The notes beneath the pieces are model-generated. The model was not told the DNA's origin. It saw nothing but the letters and a program-made list of their open reading frames with translations, and made no database searches. A DNA stretch of 40,070 nt, from the NCBI GenBank assembly GCA_937124575.1, contig CAKZKY010000527.1, positions 1 to 40,070 of the forward strand. The letters are read 5' to 3'. The stretch is from an uncultured Pseudomonadota bacterium. Lineage in GTDB: Bacteria > Desulfobacterota > BSN033 > UBA1163. Position numbers and translations under genes: made by a program. This document shows positions 15,794 through 24,996 of this stretch, piece after piece; within the stretch, counting starts at the first letter, position 1; each line of letters begins with the position of its first letter.

Positions 15794-16927
15794 ATGAAGA
15801 CCGCCCTCATCTATACGGATGCTTATCTTGATTATGATTACGGGCCGATGCATCCATTAAGGATTATCCGGCTCAAGTTGACCTATGAATTGATTAAAGC
15901 CTATGGCCTTTTGGATCTACCTTCTGTCCAATTCATTCCAACGATCCCAGCCAAAGAAGAAGATTTAACGCTCTTTCATAGCAAAGATTATATTGCGATT
16001 TTGAAGGTGGCCGATGATGGCCACTTGGGCCGGGAGGCTTATGCTTATGGTCTTGGGCCTGGGGATAACCCGATCTTTTCTGGCCTTTTCAAATGGTCAC
16101 TTCTGGTTACGGGGGCCACCCTCCAGGCAGTTGATTTTGTTGCAGATGGAAAGGGAGGGGTTGCCTTTAATATCGCCGGAGGGCTTCACCATGCGATGCC
16201 ATCAAGGGCCTCGGGTTTCTGCTATACCAATGATCCAGTGATCGGGATAATGAGGCTTGTGAAGCGTGGGATGAGGGTGGCCTATATTGATCTCGATGCG
16301 CATCACGGTGATGGCGTCCAGAAAGCTTTCTATGAGACCGATCAGGTTCTTACGATTTCGCTTCATGAGTCAGGATACTCACTCTTTCCAGGGACAGGGT
16401 TTGAGTATGAGATTGGAAATGGAAAGGGAGAGGGATTTTCAGTCAACCTTCCGTTTCCTGCCTATACGGATGATGAAACCTATCTCTGGGCATTTGAGGA
16501 GATTGTTCCCGAACTGATCGAATATTTTCGTCCAGATATTATTGTAACTCAATTGGGAGTTGATACCTTCGAGGATGATCCATTGACACACCTTTGTCTT
16601 TCAATTTACGGTTTTGAAAAGGTGATTAAGCGGATCAGGGAGCTGTCATACCCATGGTTGGCATTGGGTGGAGGGGGGTATGAGATTTCCAATGTTGCAA
16701 GGGCTTGGACATTGGCTTGGGCCCTGATGAACGGAATTAAACTAGAGGAACCTTTACCATATGCCTATGTGGAGCTGGCATCGAAACATGGAGCCCTTGA
16801 TCGGGAGTTAAAAGGCCAACCACCTAACCCTGATCGTCTCGACAGGAAGACTCGGGAGATCAGAATGGAGATGGAGAGGATTGTCCATTATCTAAAAAGA
16901 GCTGTTTTTCCAAAGGTGCGGAGATAG
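15794..16927 (+). CDS. Histone deacetylase-family (AcuC-like) zinc hydrolase
   Basis: This 377-aa class I HDAC-type amidohydrolase carries the catalytic dyad H132-H133, the zinc ligands D168 and H170 (DLDAHHGDG) and D257 (QLGVD), the motif GFCYTNDP, and GGGGY near residue 295. All catalytic residues are intact. Bacterial relatives such as AcuC deacetylate lysines, for example on acetyl-CoA synthetase, or act on small acetylated amides. Here it is joined to thrC without a gap, which is not the usual acuABC context. No acyltransferase or acs gene is in the window. The fold and chemistry are secure; the substrate is not. Confidence 0.9.
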   Translation: MKTALIYTDAYLDYDYGPMHPLRIIRLKLTYELIKAYGLLDLPSVQFIPTIPAKEEDLTLFHSKDYIAILKVADDGHLGREAYAYGLGPGDNPIFSGLFKWSLLVTGATLQAVDFVADGKGGVAFNIAGGLHHAMPSRASGFCYTNDPVIGIMRLVKRGMRVAYIDLDAHHGDGVQKAFYETDQVLTISLHESGYSLFPGTGFEYEIGNGKGEGFSVNLPFPAYTDDETYLWAFEEIVPELIEYFRPDIIVTQLGVDTFEDDPLTHLCLSIYGFEKVIKRIRELSYPWLALGGGGYEISNVARAWTLAWALMNGIKLEEPLPYAYVELASKHGALDRELKGQPPNPDRLDRKTREIRMEMERIVHYLKRAVFPKVRR

Positions 16928-16984
16928 GCATATCCAGATCGTTTTAGTACCGTCATCCTTTTTAATCAAAATCCCTCCTTAAGT

Positions 16985-17000
16985 TGGCACATCTTTTGCT
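16985..17000 (+). promoter_or_regulatory. Full-consensus sigma-54 promoter (-24/-12)
   Basis: TGGCAC (16985-16990), five bases, then TTGCT (16996-17000) match the sigma-54 consensus TGGCAC-N5-TTGCW exactly. Transcription would start near 17011, 58 bases before the apgM-like gene. rpoN itself is in this window at 23313. Such promoters need an AAA+ activator; no obvious upstream activator site could be defined in the 57 bases after the previous gene. Confidence 0.7.
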
Positions 17001-17019
17001 TCTATTTTCCGATTTTCAT

Positions 17020-17048
17020 TTGACATTTGTAAGTTTATGGTATATTTA
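17020..17048 (+). promoter_or_regulatory. Sigma-70 promoter for the apgM-like gene
   Basis: TTGACA (17020-17025) with a 17-base spacer to TATTTA (17043-17048), or a 15-base spacer to TATATT, stands just downstream of the sigma-54 site. The perfect -35 box supports it. Confidence 0.6.
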
Positions 17049-17068
17049 CATTTTAGGAATTTATTGAG

Positions 17069-18304
17069 ATGGCCAAGGGAATAAAGTATATCGTGATTGT
17101 TGGAGATGGGATGGCTGACTATCCTGTAGAGAGCCTCAATGGTAAGACACCGTTGATGGTTGCCAAAACTCCTCATATGGATTGGTTGGCTAAACATGGA
17201 AGCGTGGGACTGGTCAGGACCGTCCCAGACGGGTTCAATCCTGGAAGTGAAATTGCAAATCTTTCCATCTTTGGCTACGACCCTCTCAAGTACTATACAG
17301 GCAGGGGGCCTTTGGAGGCGGCAAGCCTCGGCGTCACATTGAAGAAGGATGACCTTGCTTTTCGCTGCAATCTCGTCACACTCAAGGCAGAGGGGTCAAA
17401 GGTCATCATGGAGGATTTTGCTGCTGGACACCCCTCTGATTCAGAGGCTCATGAGATCATCGTTGATCTCAATCGGGCCATTGGGACCGAGGAGATCCAA
17501 TTTTATTCCGGCGTGAGTTACCGTCATCTTATGGTGATGAGAAATGGGGCTTCAATAGGTTCGGATATCGAAAGGATCGAATTGACCCCACCCCATGATA
17601 TTATTGGTCAAGAGATCACTCCCTTTCTCCCCAAAGAGGATGGTCCAGGAAGAAGAATTCTCACTCTCATGAATGAGTCCCAACAATTTCTCAAAGGACA
17701 TCCGGTCAACCTTGAAAGGAAGGCAAAGGGGCTTCGGCCTGCCAACTCTATCTGGTTATGGGGGCAGGGAAGGGCTCCCCAGATGTTGACCTTAAAGGAA
17801 CGATTCGGGATTGATGGGTATGTAATTTCAGCGGTCCATCTGATCAAAGGGATTGGAATTCTGGCAGGCTTAGAGGTCCTTCCAGTTCCCGGTATCACTG
17901 GATATTTTGATACCAACTATGAGGGTAAAGGAGAATATGGTCTGAGAGGCTTGGAAGAGAGGGATTTTGTCTATATTCATGTGGAGGCTCCTGATGAAGC
18001 AGGACATATGGGAGACCCGCTCTTGAAGATCGAAGCCATCGAGTCTTTCGACAAAAAGGTCGTGGGAACGATTCTGAAAGGGATTCACCGATTTGAAAGG
18101 GTGAGATTGATGGTCCTGCCCGATCACCCCACGCCATTGAGTGTAAGAACCCATACTTCGGATCCTGTCCCCTTTGTTATCTATTCAACCGATCGATTTG
18201 AAACAGGTAATCCCGATGCTGCTTTCGATGAGGTTTTTGCCCAAAAAAGTGGCCTCTTTCTCGAAAGGGGATTTGAGTTAATTGAAAGGTTTTTAACTTC
18301 ATAA
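17069..18304 (+). CDS. ApgM-type phosphoglycerate mutase-like protein, probable homoserine kinase
   Basis: This 411-aa protein of the alkaline-phosphatase superfamily is close to archaeal cofactor-independent phosphoglycerate mutases. It has metal-binding D13 (VGDGMAD), the probable phospho-serine S60 in PGSEIANLSIFGYD, GRGPLEAASLG, HVEAPDEAGHMGDP, and a second metal site in LPDHPTP followed by RTHT. The bacterial subgroup that sits with hom and thrC has been classified as 'proposed homoserine kinase' (TIGR02535), and this gene's place two genes after thrC, with no ThrB in sight, fits that. It would phosphorylate homoserine in the cytoplasm. A glycolytic mutase role remains possible. It has its own sigma-54 and sigma-70 promoter candidates. 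Confidence 0.88.
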   Translation: MAKGIKYIVIVGDGMADYPVESLNGKTPLMVAKTPHMDWLAKHGSVGLVRTVPDGFNPGSEIANLSIFGYDPLKYYTGRGPLEAASLGVTLKKDDLAFRCNLVTLKAEGSKVIMEDFAAGHPSDSEAHEIIVDLNRAIGTEEIQFYSGVSYRHLMVMRNGASIGSDIERIELTPPHDIIGQEITPFLPKEDGPGRRILTLMNESQQFLKGHPVNLERKAKGLRPANSIWLWGQGRAPQMLTLKERFGIDGYVISAVHLIKGIGILAGLEVLPVPGITGYFDTNYEGKGEYGLRGLEERDFVYIHVEAPDEAGHMGDPLLKIEAIESFDKKVVGTILKGIHRFERVRLMVLPDHPTPLSVRTHTSDPVPFVIYSTDRFETGNPDAAFDEVFAQKSGLFLERGFELIERFLTS

Positions 18305-18329: not shown

Positions 18330-20155
<1,826 letters not shown>

Positions 20156-20227: not shown

Positions 20228-21202
20228 GTGGATATTAATATCATTGAAGAGGCGAAGCGGGTATTGAGGATTGAGGCCCAGTCGATCCTTGATCTGATGG
20301 AGAGAATTGATGAACAGTTTTCTAAAGCGGTGGACATACTCTATCACTGCAAAGGAAGGGTTGTTCTCATGGGAATGGGGAAATCCGGTCTGGTAGGTCG
20401 AAAGATTGCATCCACCTTTGCCAGCACTGGAACACCGGCCTTCTTCCTCCATCCTGCGGAGGGGCTGAACGGAGATTTTGGGATGTTAGCCAAAGAAGAT
20501 GTGGTCATCGGGATTTCCAACAGCGGAGAGACAAGGGAACTTTTAGAAGTTCTCCCCCTCATCAAACGATATGGGAATCAACTGATCGCACTGACCGGCA
20601 ACCGGAGATCGACCTTAGCAAGAGCTGGAGATGTCTTCCTCGACATTCAGGTCAAAGAAGAGGCCTGTCCTTTGGGTCTTGCACCCACAGCGAGCACAAC
20701 TGCAACCCTTGCGATTGGAGATGCCTTAGCCATTGCTTTAATGGTGAAGCGGGGATTTAAGAAGGAGGATTTTGCCCTTCTTCATCCAGGAGGAGCGCTG
20801 GGGAAGAGGCTTCTCATGAGGGTGGAGGAGTTAATGCATTCTGGAGAGGCTTTTCCAAAGGTATCGGAAGAGACCCTGATGAAGGAAGTGATCTTTGAGA
20901 TTACGTCGAAACGCCTGGGAGTGACCGCTGTCTGCAATGAAAAGGGAGAACTTGTCGGAGTGATCACGGATGGCGACTTGAGACGGGCGCTTGAGAAATA
21001 TTCAGATCTCCTCCAGCGAACCGCCTCTGAAGTGATGACGAAGAACCCAAAGTGGATTGAGAAGGATGCCCTTGCTGCAAAGGCGGTCCAGAGGATGGAG
21101 GAGTATTCGATCACCTCTCTTTTCGTGTTTGAAAAAGCTGGGGACCGTGTACCGGTTGGGATCATCCACCTTCACGATCTTTTAAAAGCAGGAGTGGTTT
21201 AG
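20228..21202 (+). CDS. kdsD: KpsF/GutQ family arabinose-5-phosphate isomerase
   Basis: It interconverts ribulose-5-phosphate and arabinose-5-phosphate, the first step to KDO of LPS. The 324-aa protein has a SIS domain (about 38-175) with MGMGKSG (K52), ISNSGET, APTASTTATLAIGDALA and LHPGGALG (H186), then two CBS domains (about 205-262 and 272-324). The usual HGDLG motif reads NGDFG here, so an active-site-region histidine is replaced by N81. The start is GTG 20228 after a GGAGGAGAGGAG run. LPS-transport genes follow, in keeping with the role. Confidence 0.9.
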   Translation: MDINIIEEAKRVLRIEAQSILDLMERIDEQFSKAVDILYHCKGRVVLMGMGKSGLVGRKIASTFASTGTPAFFLHPAEGLNGDFGMLAKEDVVIGISNSGETRELLEVLPLIKRYGNQLIALTGNRRSTLARAGDVFLDIQVKEEACPLGLAPTASTTATLAIGDALAIALMVKRGFKKEDFALLHPGGALGKRLLMRVEELMHSGEAFPKVSEETLMKEVIFEITSKRLGVTAVCNEKGELVGVITDGDLRRALEKYSDLLQRTASEVMTKNPKWIEKDALAAKAVQRMEEYSITSLFVFEKAGDRVPVGIIHLHDLLKAGVV

Positions 21203-21280
21203 TCGTATCGTCTCATGGTCTATTAGTTTAGTATTTAATGAGGCGACTATCCGACGATGAGATGAAGCGACGAGGTGCAT

Positions 21281-21883
21281 ATGGCAATGATATTGAGAAA
21301 AACGAAGATTGCTATTCTGCTTGCGATATTCCTGATAGGGGGAATCGTCTTGGTCAGCCTCTGGGTAAACCTAAGGGAGAGAAATAGGGCGCAGGAGGAC
21401 GAAAAGGTTTCTAAGATCTCAACAGAAGGAGCTGATCAACGGTTAGAGAAGATCCACCTGGTCGAAGAGAAGCATGGGAAAAAGACGTGGGAGCTTGAGG
21501 CCAAAGCGATCTATCAATATCAGGGAGAGGACCTTCTCCTATTGGAGGATGTGAAGGTGACCTATTATGCAAAGGATGGGCGGTCGTTCACGCTTTCTGG
21601 AAATCGGGGTAAAGTTCACCAAGTTTCAAAAGACATGGAACTCACAGGTGATGTGCTTCTAAGATCAACCGACGGATACCAGTTAAAGACAGAATCCATA
21701 TCCTACCGGCATTCAAGCAAACAGGTAAGGACTCCTGATCAGATTGAATTTGTGGGAGAGCAGATCCACCTGACCGGTAAGGGAATGCTGGTCGATATGG
21801 AGGCGAAGACTTTTAAGGTCCTCAGTCAGGTGAGGACGCAATGGAAAGGAGGAGGAAGCGTTGAGATCAAAAAAAGGAGTTAG
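21281..21883 (+). CDS. lptC: LptC, inner-membrane LPS transport protein
   Basis: LptC passes LPS from the LptB2FG transporter to periplasmic LptA. The 200-aa protein has one N-terminal transmembrane helix (about 8-28) and a periplasmic beta-jellyroll domain (LEKIHLVEEKHGKKTWELEA, then LEDVKVTYYAKDG, then DMELTGDVLLRSTDGYQLKT), the typical YrbK pattern. ATG 21281 has GAGG five bases upstream. Other starts at GTG 21275 and ATG 21287 are possible. The end overlaps lptA by 23 bases. Confidence 0.9.
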   Translation: MAMILRKTKIAILLAIFLIGGIVLVSLWVNLRERNRAQEDEKVSKISTEGADQRLEKIHLVEEKHGKKTWELEAKAIYQYQGEDLLLLEDVKVTYYAKDGRSFTLSGNRGKVHQVSKDMELTGDVLLRSTDGYQLKTESISYRHSSKQVRTPDQIEFVGEQIHLTGKGMLVDMEAKTFKVLSQVRTQWKGGGSVEIKKRS

Positions 21884-22430
21884 GCCGCCCCACCTTCTGT
21901 TTGGGTTTCGGTGTGGATCGCTTTTCTTCCTCCTCTTGGTCGTCTCCCTCTGTTGTTCGTCCGGACAGGCAGAGGAGAAGAAAGGGAGTCCAGCAAAGAG
22001 CTTCGGATTTACGTCTTCACGCTCCCCTATTGAGATTACCTCCGACACGGTGGAGGGAGACCAAAAGCAGAATCGGATCACTTTTAAGGGGAACGTCGTT
22101 GCCAAACAGGAAGATGCCACCCTTTATGCAAACACAGTGGTTATTCATTACGATTCGGAAATGAAAAGGATAAAGGAGATCATTGCCACCGGAAATGTCA
22201 GAGTCGTTCAATTGGATCGCAGAGCGACATGCCAGAAGGTCATATTCTATCAGAACGAGAGTAAGATTGTCCTCGAGGGGGAAGCTGTGATTCGAGAAGG
22301 CGACAATGTGGTTCGCGGAGAACGGGTCGTCTACCTGATTGATGAAGAGAGAAGCTATGTGGAGGGAGGCAAGGGAGGCCGGGTTACCACGACCATCATC
22401 CCTTCCTCGAAAGAAGAAAGGAAAAAGTAG
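21861..22430 (+). CDS. lptA: LptA, periplasmic LPS bridge protein
   Basis: LptA polymerises into the bridge that carries LPS across the periplasm. The 189-aa protein has a basic start, a hydrophobic signal segment (about 15-35, FRCGSLFFLLLVVSLCC) and an OstA/LptA domain with PIEITSDTVEGDQKQNRITFKGNVVAKQED-like repeats through about residue 170. Start is TTG 21861, four bases after an AGGAGGAGG run inside lptC. The stop TAG is followed at once by the TTCGGAG repeat. Confidence 0.92.
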   Translation: MRSKKGVRPPHLLFGFRCGSLFFLLLVVSLCCSSGQAEEKKGSPAKSFGFTSSRSPIEITSDTVEGDQKQNRITFKGNVVAKQEDATLYANTVVIHYDSEMKRIKEIIATGNVRVVQLDRRATCQKVIFYQNESKIVLEGEAVIREGDNVVRGERVVYLIDEERSYVEGGKGGRVTTTIIPSSKEERKK

Positions 22431-22458
22431 TTCGGAGTGATGAGTTCGCAGTTCGGAG
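22430..22458 (+). repeat. TTCGGAG short repeat after lptA
   Basis: GTTCGGAGT-GATG-AGTTCG-C-AGTTCGGAG matches 37718-37746 at 26 of 29 positions. Both follow or overlap the end of a gene. Downstream, imperfect inverted words (TTCGAACTCGAAATTCCGA) suggest a hairpin-forming element up to about 22500. Confidence 0.65.
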
Positions 22459-22516
22459 AAAAGAGTATACTTCGAACTCGAAATTCCGATTTCCAAATTT
22501 TTTTTAGGGAGAGACA

Positions 22517-23311
22517 ATGTCTCATCTCCGATGTGAAGAGCTTACGAAATCATTTCGCCATCGTCAGGTGGTGAATCAGGTCAGCGTCGAGATCGAAGGG
22601 GGCGAGGTGGTTGGACTGCTGGGTCCCAATGGCGCAGGGAAGACCACCATCTTCTATATGATTGTTGGGCTGCTTCGTCCCAACCGAGGAAGAATCTATC
22701 TCAATGGAGAGGAGATTACCTCCCTTCCCATGTATCTGAGGGCGCGAAAAGGGATCGGTTACCTCCCACAGGAACCCTCCGTATTCAGGAAACTGTCCGT
22801 GGAAGAGAATTTGATGGCCATTTTGGAGACTTTGCCTCTTTCACGCGAGGAACAGGCTGAGCGGTTAGAGATCCTTTTGAATGAGCTGGGCCTCTCTCCA
22901 TTGCGAAAGCAAAAAGCCTACAGCCTCTCGGGAGGGGAGCGGCGGAGGGTGGAGATCACGAGAGCCCTTGTTTTATCTCCCTCTTTTATCCTCTTGGATG
23001 AACCTTTTGCAGGGATCGATCCCATAGCCGTTCTGGATATTCAGGCCATTGTCCGTCAATTGAAATCGAAGGGTATTGGAATTATAATAACCGATCATAA
23101 TGTTCGTGAAACATTAGGCGTCTGCGATCGGGCCTATATTTTGAACGAAGGGATTTTATTGGAATCCGGGACGCCAGAGGAGATCGCCCAGAGTCCCAAG
23201 GCGAGAAAGATTTACCTGGGAGATGAATTTCGTTTGGATGAGAGATACCCTCAGAGAAGAGAAAAGGTGAAAAAGGCAGATAAGCAGAGCCCTGGCCCTT
23301 TATTCAAATAA
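22517..23311 (+). CDS. lptB: LptB, LPS export ABC transporter ATPase
   Basis: LptB powers LPS extraction with LptF and LptG, which are not in this window. The 264-aa protein has Walker A GPNGAGKT (36-43), Q85, LSGGE (137-141), Walker B ILLDE (158-162) with PFAGIDP, and ITDHN carrying the switch histidine. The C-terminal extension (about 242-264, Lys/Arg/Gln-rich) is longer than in E. coli LptB. AGGGAGAGACA precedes ATG 22517. rpoN follows after one base. Confidence 0.95.
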   Translation: MSHLRCEELTKSFRHRQVVNQVSVEIEGGEVVGLLGPNGAGKTTIFYMIVGLLRPNRGRIYLNGEEITSLPMYLRARKGIGYLPQEPSVFRKLSVEENLMAILETLPLSREEQAERLEILLNELGLSPLRKQKAYSLSGGERRRVEITRALVLSPSFILLDEPFAGIDPIAVLDIQAIVRQLKSKGIGIIITDHNVRETLGVCDRAYILNEGILLESGTPEEIAQSPKARKIYLGDEFRLDERYPQRREKVKKADKQSPGPLFK

Positions 23312-23312
23312 G

Positions 23313-24767
23313 ATGGTTTTAGAACTTAAGCAGACCCCCAAACTCGTTCAGCAGTTAGTGATAACCCCTCAGCTCCAACAGGCTATTCGGCTTCTTCAAC
23401 TCACACGGCTGGAACTGGTGGACATGATTAGCCAGGAACTGAAAGAGAATCCCCTTCTTGAGGAGATCGAAGAGAAGGAGTCGCTCGACGAAGAAGACCA
23501 GGCAGGGCCCGAAGAGAATGTTGAGGAGCCGGTTCCCAGTATTGAGATGACCTCGGAAGTGAAGGGAGAAGGAGAGGGGGCAGACGAGTTTGATTGGGAA
23601 AACTATCTTGAGAATTATAACCTCACCGCTCCAGTTCGGCAGAGAGAACAGGATGGAGAGGAGAGACCCTCTTTCGAAAACTATCTCACGAAAACGACCA
23701 CCCTTTTTGACCATCTCCATTGGCAACTCCAGCTTTCTAATCTAACCGAAGAAGAACTGGCTGCAGGGACATGGATCATTGGAAACCTCGATGAGGACGG
23801 CTATTTCAAGATGTCCCTGGAAGAGGTCAGTGCTGAAGCGGGTTTACCGGTTGAGGGTGTTGAGCGCGTCCTCAAAAAGATACAGCAATTTGATCCAGTT
23901 GGTGTGGCTGCCAGAGACTTAAAGGAATGCCTTCTCGTCCAGTTAAGCCAGCTATCCAATCGAGATCCGATTGCAGAAAAGATTATTCAGGAGCATCTCT
24001 CCTTATTGAAGAACCGTAACTACCCTGCTATTGCCAAACGTTTGGGTGTCTCGGTCGAGAGGGTGAATCGAGCTGCCTCCCTCATCTCGAGGTTAGAGCC
24101 CAAGCCGGGCAGGGCCTATGGGGGCGAGCTCGCCCAAGATATCATTCCTGACGTCTATGTCTATAAAGTAGAGGGTGAATATGTGGTTTCGTTAAATGAC
24201 GAAGGGGTGCCTCGATTAAGGGTCAATTCCTATTATCGCCGAATCCTTGCGGAAGGCCTCTACGGCCAACCGGATGATCGAAAATATATCCAAGAAAAGT
24301 TGCGTTCTGCGCTCTGGTTGATCCGCAGCATTGATCAGCGTCAGAGGACGATTTATAAGGTGGCCAAGAGCATTGTCAAGTTTCAAAAGGACTTTCTGGA
24401 TCAGGGGATTCAATATCTCAAACCTCTTGTCCTGAGAGATGTGGCAGAGGATATTCAAATGCATGAGTCGACCATCAGCAGGGTCACCAGCAATAAGTAT
24501 ATGCATACCCCCCAAGGAATTTATGAGTTGAAATTTTTCTTCAATGCGGGCATCCCTTCCCTTCAGGGTGAGGTGATGGCTTCTGAGAGTGTAAAGAGCT
24601 TGCTCAGGGAGATCATCACCCGGGAAGATCCCAAGAGACCCTACAGTGATCAGAGACTGGTCCAGATGCTGAGAGAGAGAAACATCCATATTGCCCGGAG
24701 GACCGTTTCGAAATACCGTGAGACGATGAAGATCCTCTCTTCGAGTGAACGACGAAAGGTCGTGTGA
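23313..24767 (+). CDS. rpoN: RNA polymerase sigma-54 factor
   Basis: Sigma-54 directs polymerase to -24/-12 promoters that need AAA+ activators. The 484-aa protein has the Gln/Leu-rich region I (LVITPQLQQAIRLLQL, 15-30), an acidic region II (about 45-105), the core-binding region (GNLDEDGYF, FDPVGVAARDL), the helix-turn-helix region (VAEDIQMHESTISRVTSNKY, about 390-409) and the RpoN box ARRTVSKYRE (461-470; the standard form has Ala for Ser). No Shine-Dalgarno is seen, so translation is probably coupled to lptB, whose TAA ends one base before the ATG. Confidence 0.97.
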   Translation: MVLELKQTPKLVQQLVITPQLQQAIRLLQLTRLELVDMISQELKENPLLEEIEEKESLDEEDQAGPEENVEEPVPSIEMTSEVKGEGEGADEFDWENYLENYNLTAPVRQREQDGEERPSFENYLTKTTTLFDHLHWQLQLSNLTEEELAAGTWIIGNLDEDGYFKMSLEEVSAEAGLPVEGVERVLKKIQQFDPVGVAARDLKECLLVQLSQLSNRDPIAEKIIQEHLSLLKNRNYPAIAKRLGVSVERVNRAASLISRLEPKPGRAYGGELAQDIIPDVYVYKVEGEYVVSLNDEGVPRLRVNSYYRRILAEGLYGQPDDRKYIQEKLRSALWLIRSIDQRQRTIYKVAKSIVKFQKDFLDQGIQYLKPLVLRDVAEDIQMHESTISRVTSNKYMHTPQGIYELKFFFNAGIPSLQGEVMASESVKSLLREIITREDPKRPYSDQRLVQMLRERNIHIARRTVSKYRETMKILSSSERRKVV

Positions 24768-24835: not shown

Positions 24836-24996
24836 AAACCCCCTTAGAAGAGCTTTGCCCTTCTAACGGGAATGCTCCCACGGGACATTAAGCCCTGTGT
24901 TCGCTAAGAGGGTAATTAACACATCCCCGCTGTAAGCCCCGATAGAAGCCAAGCTTCGCATGGGGGCAAGCGGCAGGGCTTTCTAACGAGGTAAAG
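24836..24996 (+). repeat. Dispersed palindromic repeat, full copy before hpf
   Basis: This 161-base copy folds as TTAGAAG/CTTCTAA, CACGGG/CCCTGTG (with a G-T pair where the 18330 copy has G-C), and the nested CCCC-GAAGC-caa-GCTTC-GGGG hairpin. It begins AAACCCCCTTAGAAG and ends TTCTAACGAGGTAAAG. The final AAAG merges into the hpf ribosome-binding site. Confidence 0.88.

Follow-up and report, generated by a model that had tools for sequence, protein, structure and literature searches.

A conserved tandem of predicted sigma-54 and sigma-70 promoters heads a gene cluster that includes rpoN

The window analysed here, i.e. the whole 40,070-nucleotide stretch of contig CAKZKY010000527.1 from an uncultured bacterium, carries two adjacent promoter elements immediately upstream of an apgM-like gene: a -24/-12 element of the kind bound by RNA polymerase containing sigma-54 (Eσ54), followed by a -35/-10 pair of the kind used by the sigma-70 enzyme (Eσ70). 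On sequence comparison within its own family and a sister family this tandem is selectively maintained, its elements, their nearly fixed spacing and their conservation all being visible, and we consider it very probable that sigma-54 reads the upstream site and that the downstream pair forms a sigma-70 promoter. The tandem heads a conserved run of genes that extends into rpoN, the gene for sigma-54 itself, and this layout suggests that sigma-54 helps to control its own gene cluster. We infer the direction and signal of such control, and because the tandem fronts an rpoN-containing cluster its position appears to make the finding more interesting than the first-pass annotation of this DNA had described. 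Coordinates are collected in Table 1.

An exact TGGCAC-N5-TTGCT site had been claimed in the first-pass annotation and is indeed present at 16985-17000, the sole exact match in the window (0.01 expected from shuffled sequences). When two mismatches are allowed, with A or T as the last base, the window contains 12 matches against 12.3 expected, i.e. the chance level, so that the weight of the assignment lies in the exactness and conservation of the site. The whole genome (3.43 Mb in 529 contigs, the window being contig 527) holds ten exact TGGCACN5TTGCW sites and no match to the reversed control pattern. Reading by eye of the open reading frames (ORFs) around the other nine places four ahead of genes commonly associated with sigma-54 (L002, flagellar; L005, flanked by two activator genes; L006, glnA; L007, prepilin-like), leaves four without clear gene assignment (L001, L003, L004 and L008) and sets one (L009) inside an ORF that resembles lon; searches confirmed two of these contexts, L006 lying upstream of glnA and L005 between two PF00158 domains on contig 105. 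The site before the apgM-like gene shows the GG at -24, the GC at -12, the fixed spacing and the TGGCAY-N5-TTGC consensus of sigma-54 elements, and the genome contains sigma-54 machinery in the form of an intact rpoN (three Pfam domains) and 13 strong PF00158 activator domains. The predicted sigma-54 start, given previously as 17011, agrees with the position 12 nt after the -12 C; it is G in 14 of 15 own-family rows (C in G004; G010, with a 1-nt deletion, was left out), and the four sister-family sequences have G there in one case and C in three, with G at -1 in all four.

For the sigma-70 promoter, the same annotation had paired TATTTA with a TTGACA element located 20 bases beyond the sigma-54 site. 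The TTGACA (17020-17025) stands, the intervening gap being 19 bp rather than 20, a TTGCT-to-TTGACA distance that is found in 19 of 20 genomes and is 18 bp in G010. The proposed -10 element requires revision: TATATT (17041-17046), preceded by TGg (17038-17040), lies 15 bp from TTGACA within a region that reads TGGTATATT in 15 of the 16 own-family genomes and TAGTATATT in G002, and it is preferred because the sister family has TG(T/C)TATAGT or TGTTATAAG with a 16-bp spacer. On this comparison the extended element TGgTATATT appears the better -10, TATTTA at 17 bp being less likely, yet possible from sequence. A -35/-10 pair, which in the window is TTGACA with TGgTATATT at a 15-bp spacer and in the sister family has TTGACT and a 16-bp spacer, is kept in 20/20 genomes, although a simple sigma-70 scan does not list that of the window. 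The -35/-10 stretch is unique in its own genome at up to three mismatches.

The earlier proposal of tandem promoters had been made dependent on conservation of the site in relatives, and comparison across the class bears it out. The tandem occurs in 20 of 23 class genomes, which are all 20 of those in which an orthologue of the apgM-like gene was found (16 from the own family and four from the sister family), and in every one TGGCAY-N5-TTGCT is followed by TTGAC(A/T) and then by a TATA-type -10. Nineteen of these match a pattern scan and G010 makes the twentieth; G011, G018 and G019 are without a match and hold only distant homologues of the gene (32-35% identity), and G011 and G019 also lack a pyrG at E <= 1e-100, so that the region may be missing from these assemblies. 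Every named own-family relative is a metagenome assembly. Mean pairwise identity among 15 genomes is 0.77-0.93 in the core of a 65-bp block spanning both promoters and 0.60 and 0.68 in its two edge windows, compared with 0.32-0.53 in the flanking sequence; fourfold-degenerate sites of the apgM-like gene average 0.42. In the family column count (15 of 16 rows, G010 being dropped because it is one base shorter) TGGCA and CTTTTGCT are invariant (15/15) and position -21 is T or C. The sister family carries the same element before an apgM gene that is 58-59% identical, and the block is kept both where the upstream gene differs (thrC or a histone-deacetylase-fold gene) and despite an insert of about 100 bp between the -10 and the start codon in G001, G004, G005 and G007. 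Among these inserts between tandem and apgM (loci L013, L014, L092 and L103), those of the three closest genomes are rich in ACGAAT/ATTCGT motifs, and the own genome has a similar repeat in its glnA leader (L006).

No convincing copy of the tandem was found outside the two families in a sample of 395 genomes from the phylum: 15 matched, 14 of them from these families, and the fifteenth (G033, three mismatches) was taken as a chance match. Likewise, 77 apgM-homologue loci outside both families (69 scored and eight searched by pattern over 260 bp, some possibly representing the same genome twice) have no comparable upstream site; the two highest scores were those of the Nitrospira-titled L047 (23.4, 29 bases before the conserved near-start motif) and L110 (20.5, 47 bases before it), neither of which carries the TTGACATTT mark. 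A family-specific 17-mer of the sigma-54 site occurs zero to three times per genome in 17 genomes; five matches lie away from apgM, four of them intergenic and before ORFs (G011, G004 C15, G016 and G014) and the fifth (G004 C14) inside an ORF. By eye, of the further family sites of this 17-mer at L143, L160, L159 and L161, two directly follow an ORF for an enhancer-binding protein and precede a small exported-looking protein, one of the remaining two precedes a P-type ATPase-like ORF and the other a multicopper-oxidase-like ORF. A structured leader RNA was considered and rejected, the fold of 17011-17080 being no better than those of shuffled sequences (z 0.48), and no Rfam family matched at its gathering threshold in the window.

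The window contains, in order, recG, an aminotransferase gene, hom, thrC, the histone-deacetylase-fold gene, apgM, pyrG, kdsD, lptC, lptA, lptB and rpoN, followed by hpf, ptsN, hprK, rapZ, a PTS EIIA gene, ptsI, metK and ahcY (assigned with NCBIfam and Pfam; ptsN is named by its best match, which is below the strict cut-off). That rpoN lies in the same window had been mentioned earlier as an aside, which proves an important clue: rpoN belongs to the conserved run that the tandem heads. The same-strand order apgM-pyrG-(kdsD)-lptC-lptA-lptB-rpoN-hpf-ptsN-hprK is found in 9/9 relatives' stretches (seven from the own family and two from the sister family), with kdsD in seven of the nine and no match to it in the two sister-family ones; rpoN is 5.4-6.3 kb downstream of the tandem in all nine, and in the window it begins 1 bp after the lptB stop. 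We compared the intergenic gaps of the own genome with those of seven own-family relatives by the mean identity of the best 30-mer, using five shuffles, sampled at every third position, as the null. The gap before apgM gave 0.95 against a null maximum of 0.63 and that before lptB 0.62 against 0.56; those before pyrG, kdsD, lptC, hpf, ptsN and hprK came no further than 0.02 from the respective null maximum, and for lptA and rpoN the gap was too short to compare. By this sequence measure, of the gaps compared down to hprK just the one with the tandem promoter contains a clearly conserved block, and because this promoter also heads the conserved run, the cluster including rpoN seems the likelier target of control.

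Table 1. Position and supporting evidence of the promoter elements and of the genes discussed in the text
Feature	Coordinates	Strand	Basis
Conserved block over both promoters	16984-17049	+	Mean pairwise identity, 10-column windows, 15 genomes
Sigma-54 -24/-12 element TTGGCACATCTTTTGCT	16984-17000	+	Exact consensus; GG at -25/-24, GC at -13/-12 relative to 17011
Predicted sigma-54 transcription start (G)	17011	+	12 nt after -12 C
Sigma-70 -35 element TTGACA	17020-17025	+	TTGACA 16/16 own family, TTGACT 4/4 sister family
Sigma-70 extended -10 TGgTATATT, predicted start ~17053	17038-17046	+	Comparison with sister family
Histone-deacetylase-fold gene, between thrC and apgM	15794-16927		PF00850
apgM-like gene, proposed homoserine kinase (ThrB2 type)	17069-18304	+	NCBIfam; Pfam PF10143 and PF01676
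pyrG, CTP synthase	18506-20155	+	TIGR00337, 815 bits; after apgM in 9/9 relatives' stretches
kdsD/kpsF-type arabinose-5-phosphate isomerase	20228-21202	+	TIGR00393 over cut-off
lptC, lptA, lptB	21275-23311	+	TIGR04409, TIGR03002, TIGR04406 over cut-off; 9/9 stretches
rpoN (sigma-54)	23313-24767	+	TIGR02395, 445 bits; PF00309, PF04963, PF04552; last before hpf-ptsN-hprK

Sigma-54 promoters normally have an upstream activator site, typically 80-150 bp away, and we searched for such an enhancer with the glnA promoters of the family as a control (20 loci fetched, of which L181-L194 were used and L195-L200 left out). A sigma-54 site lies within 700 bp of glnA in 10 of these 14 loci, with none in G004, G008, G012 and G016 (83 bp being available in G016), and all ten promoters share a palindrome-like motif near TTTAAGCAGGNTGATGAAA at about -141 (27.5 bits, null maximum 18.1), which is a candidate activator site of the family at glnA; no conserved block was found downstream of the glnA sigma-54 promoters. 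Upstream of the apgM tandem, by contrast with this control, a search of 220 bp in 11 non-redundant genomes revealed no enhancer site at a conserved position; positional identity there is at the random level (0.24-0.33) from -200 to -11 and 0.55 in the last 10 bp. The ten activator ORFs read, out of the 13 strong domains, all end by eye in a Fis-type helix-turn-helix, so that these activators are expected to use DNA sites; two of the ten are without a plain GAFTGA match. Two further candidates were rejected: a glnA-type enhancer near the tandem, for which the one place found (13197, both strands, three mismatches) is at chance level, and an enhancer located downstream, at the beginning of apgM, where silent-site identity is 0.39 compared with 0.30-0.53 in later windows (more than 40 comparisons, with the first few codons outside coverage). 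A specific link between threonine synthesis and nitrogen, one of the options that the first-pass annotation had raised for sigma-54 control, was not supported: neither a conserved upstream enhancer nor a glnA enhancer motif near the tandem was found, and the promoter heads a cluster reaching rpoN. Threonine need not be the point of control, since this cluster runs via pyrG and the lpt genes into rpoN.

As the main role of the sigma-54 site we propose, with a probability of roughly 0.45, competition of Eσ54 with Eσ70 that results in negative feedback, and we rank this above enhancer-activated transcription from the same site. The sigma-70 promoter would set the working level of the cluster, rpoN included; Eσ54 held in a closed complex at -24/-12, within the upstream reach of Eσ70, would compete with it, and accumulating sigma-54 would therefore damp its own cluster. 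The genes for threonine, cytidine triphosphate (CTP) and lipopolysaccharide export would be carried along with this feedback, and should an activator reach the closed complex, the site may in addition initiate transcription at about 17011. Two findings put competition slightly ahead: only the two promoters and the intervening stretch are conserved, and the search gave no enhancer. Closed Eσ54 covers approximately -34 to -5 and Eσ70 approximately -55 to +20. About 54 bp separate the -12 C from the sigma-70 start predicted downstream of it at 17053, a geometry which, on these footprints, suggests that the polymerases would make contact or overlap, with the -35 covered by Eσ54 once its complex is open. 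A stricter form, in which the site does not serve to switch transcription on but is an enhancer-less operator and Eσ54 itself the repressor, throttling at a fixed distance the cluster that encodes sigma-54, is held more tentatively, as a possibility to which we give appreciably less than even odds.

Precedents for competition exist. In Escherichia coli, sigma-54 is reported to act as a repressor where a sigma-70 promoter overlaps its site, and all motifs of this kind have C at -12 (PMC4551910); classes I and II of that work resemble the present case in having a sigma-54 site within sigma-70 reach and C at -12, competition in vitro being reported for the E. coli cases only. They concern individual genes (argT, chaC, mdfA and patA), whereas here a nearly fixed 19-bp geometry is shared by two families in front of an rpoN cluster. 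Further data are described as consistent with sigma competition at intergenic sites, roadblock repression inside genes being ruled out (PMC4591121). In Neisseria, sigma-54 is proposed to lower sigma-70 transcription of pilE, and the class II pilE of Neisseria meningitidis likewise combines a conserved -12/-24 with a nearby sigma-70 promoter and proposed steric competition (PMC6755734); unlike at pilE, the present site is conserved over a class and precedes a metabolic and rpoN cluster. The rpoN gene of Rhizobium leguminosarum is cited as negatively autoregulated (PMC3538637), which shares with our proposal a possible sigma-54 control of its own gene; here the site heads the run and is separated from rpoN by about 6 kb.

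Several observations weigh against the competition reading. The G at the predicted sigma-54 start, kept in all but one of the own-family rows, speaks for activation, because a pure roadblock would not need it. The 18-mer motifs found upstream of apgM exceed the null maximum in both ranges searched (21.7 against 17.6 bits within 220 bp and 23.0 against 18.9 bits within 600 bp), at scattered positions, and the last 60 bp upstream of the site give 17.4 against 16.6 bits; read by eye, the two longer-range motifs look like shared thrC and histone-deacetylase-fold coding sequence. A weak, mobile or remote enhancer, or an activator acting from solution, would escape a search of 220-600 bp in 11 genomes. 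A simple sigma-70 scan with 16-18 bp spacers and fixed -10 letters lists neither choice of -10 for the TTGACA at 17020. Within the region the highest-ranking sigma-70-like sequence is TTGAAA-17-TATAAT (23060-23088), inside lptB and about 225 bp before rpoN, so that rpoN may have a promoter of its own. Finally, the apgM-pyrG gap is 204 bp here, with a dispersed repeat in between, compared with 18-68 bp in nine relatives (measured from match ends).

The strongest alternative is ordinary dual control, in which the sigma-70 promoter provides a basal level and an enhancer-binding protein, responding to nitrogen, envelope stress or another signal, switches on the sigma-54 promoter and raises the cluster including rpoN, a positive feedback. 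Consensus sites located just before genes are usually promoters, and the completeness of this one, the purine at its start site in 14 of 15 own-family rows and the 13 strong activator domains of the genome are all in keeping with such control. Salmonella glnA, with separate sigma-70 and sigma-54 promoters and strong, activator-responsive transcription, offers a parallel (PMC3844500); like glmY/glmZ in the same source it resembles the present gene in having both promoter types, those of glmY/glmZ overlapping fully and those of glnA not at all, whereas here the two are adjacent and no enhancer was found. The enhancer search is what counts against dual control, since the control promoter at glnA shows a positionally conserved site and the apgM tandem none within 220 bp, a glnA-type motif is not near, and beyond some 10 bp upstream of the site conservation is no better than random. 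We regard it as a serious contender that nevertheless falls short of an even chance.

It is unlikely, in our estimate, that the site guides apgM alone, i.e. threonine synthesis, with pyrG to rpoN transcribed from unconserved promoters of their own. The repeat-bearing gap of about 200 bp after apgM, the strong sigma-70-like match in lptB and the adjoining hom and thrC would fit this arrangement; the short gap after apgM in 9/9 relatives argues against it, as do the intergenic blocks before pyrG, kdsD and lptC, which exceed the null by no more than 0.01. Less probable by some distance is that the upstream element is an operator or upstream contact of another regulator of the sigma-70 promoter and is not read by sigma-54. 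Such a regulator could account for the retention of positions outside the consensus (the CTT before TTGC and a TTTTC stretch between the promoters), for the absence of a -35-like element 19 bp after any of the nine other exact genome sites (0/9) and for the finding of no enhancer; yet TGGCA and TTGC are invariant, the variable -21 alternates between C and T as it does in the glnA sites of the family, and the 17-mer is intergenic and before ORFs in four of its five matches away from apgM, of which two immediately follow a gene for an activator. A chance match, for which the exact pattern has an expectation of roughly one per 4 Mb or 0.01 in a 40-kb window, is refuted by conservation in 20/20 genomes of two families whose silent sites have strongly diverged.

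The apgM-like gene had been assigned to an amino-acid pathway, which is plausible and qualified by its annotation. Its product is over the cut-offs of NF003242 'cofactor-independent phosphoglycerate mutase' (549 bits, the best-scoring NCBIfam model), TIGR02535 'proposed homoserine kinase' (534 bits) and TIGR00306 (526 bits). A classical thrB (TIGR00191) is over the cut-off in 0/17 family genomes, with weak matches in 16, and the gene is near hom and thrC; the TIGR02535 match, these neighbours and the lack of a thrB over cut-off are the features by which the ThrB2 type is recognised, and the gene plausibly encodes homoserine kinase. Genome context has led to the prediction of a ThrB2 of this type, which is cited as needed for threonine-free growth of Bacteroides thetaiotaomicron (PMC9026213). 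The neighbouring histone-deacetylase-fold gene is present in some relatives and absent in others, with a short-piece match in G014. A 96-nt repeat has two copies, 86% identical, one in the apgM-pyrG gap (18361-18456) and the other in the rpoN-hpf gap (24870-24965), a gap that spans 33 to 287 bp in the nine relatives' stretches.

Among the open-licence titles and abstract openings listed, neither literature on rpoN autoregulation nor that on sigma-54 or rpoN together with homoserine kinase, threonine, pyrG, apgM or tandem promoters describes such an arrangement. Sigma-54 regulons are available from Geobacter and Desulfovibrio, which belong to the same phylum as the present genome, the Geobacter regulon including glnA and flagellar genes (PMC2725144, PMC4641369). 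The main texts of both papers are without 'homoserine' and 'phosphoglycerate mutase'; 'autoregulat' appears once in the main text of PMC4641369, for another gene, and nowhere in that of PMC2725144. Attempts to delete rpoN are reported to have failed in Geobacter and Myxococcus (PMC4641369).

Repression of sigma-70 promoters by Eσ54 has been reported at scattered E. coli genes (PMC4551910), and for the question of whether selection maintains such control, a geometry conserved in two families before an rpoN cluster, with no enhancer detected, would be a clean case. The operator reading, if true, would tie the supply of sigma-54 to genes for threonine, CTP and outer-membrane assembly, in an arrangement kept across both families. 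The conserved geometry would also offer a concrete way of setting sigma-54 levels in Thermodesulfobacteriota.
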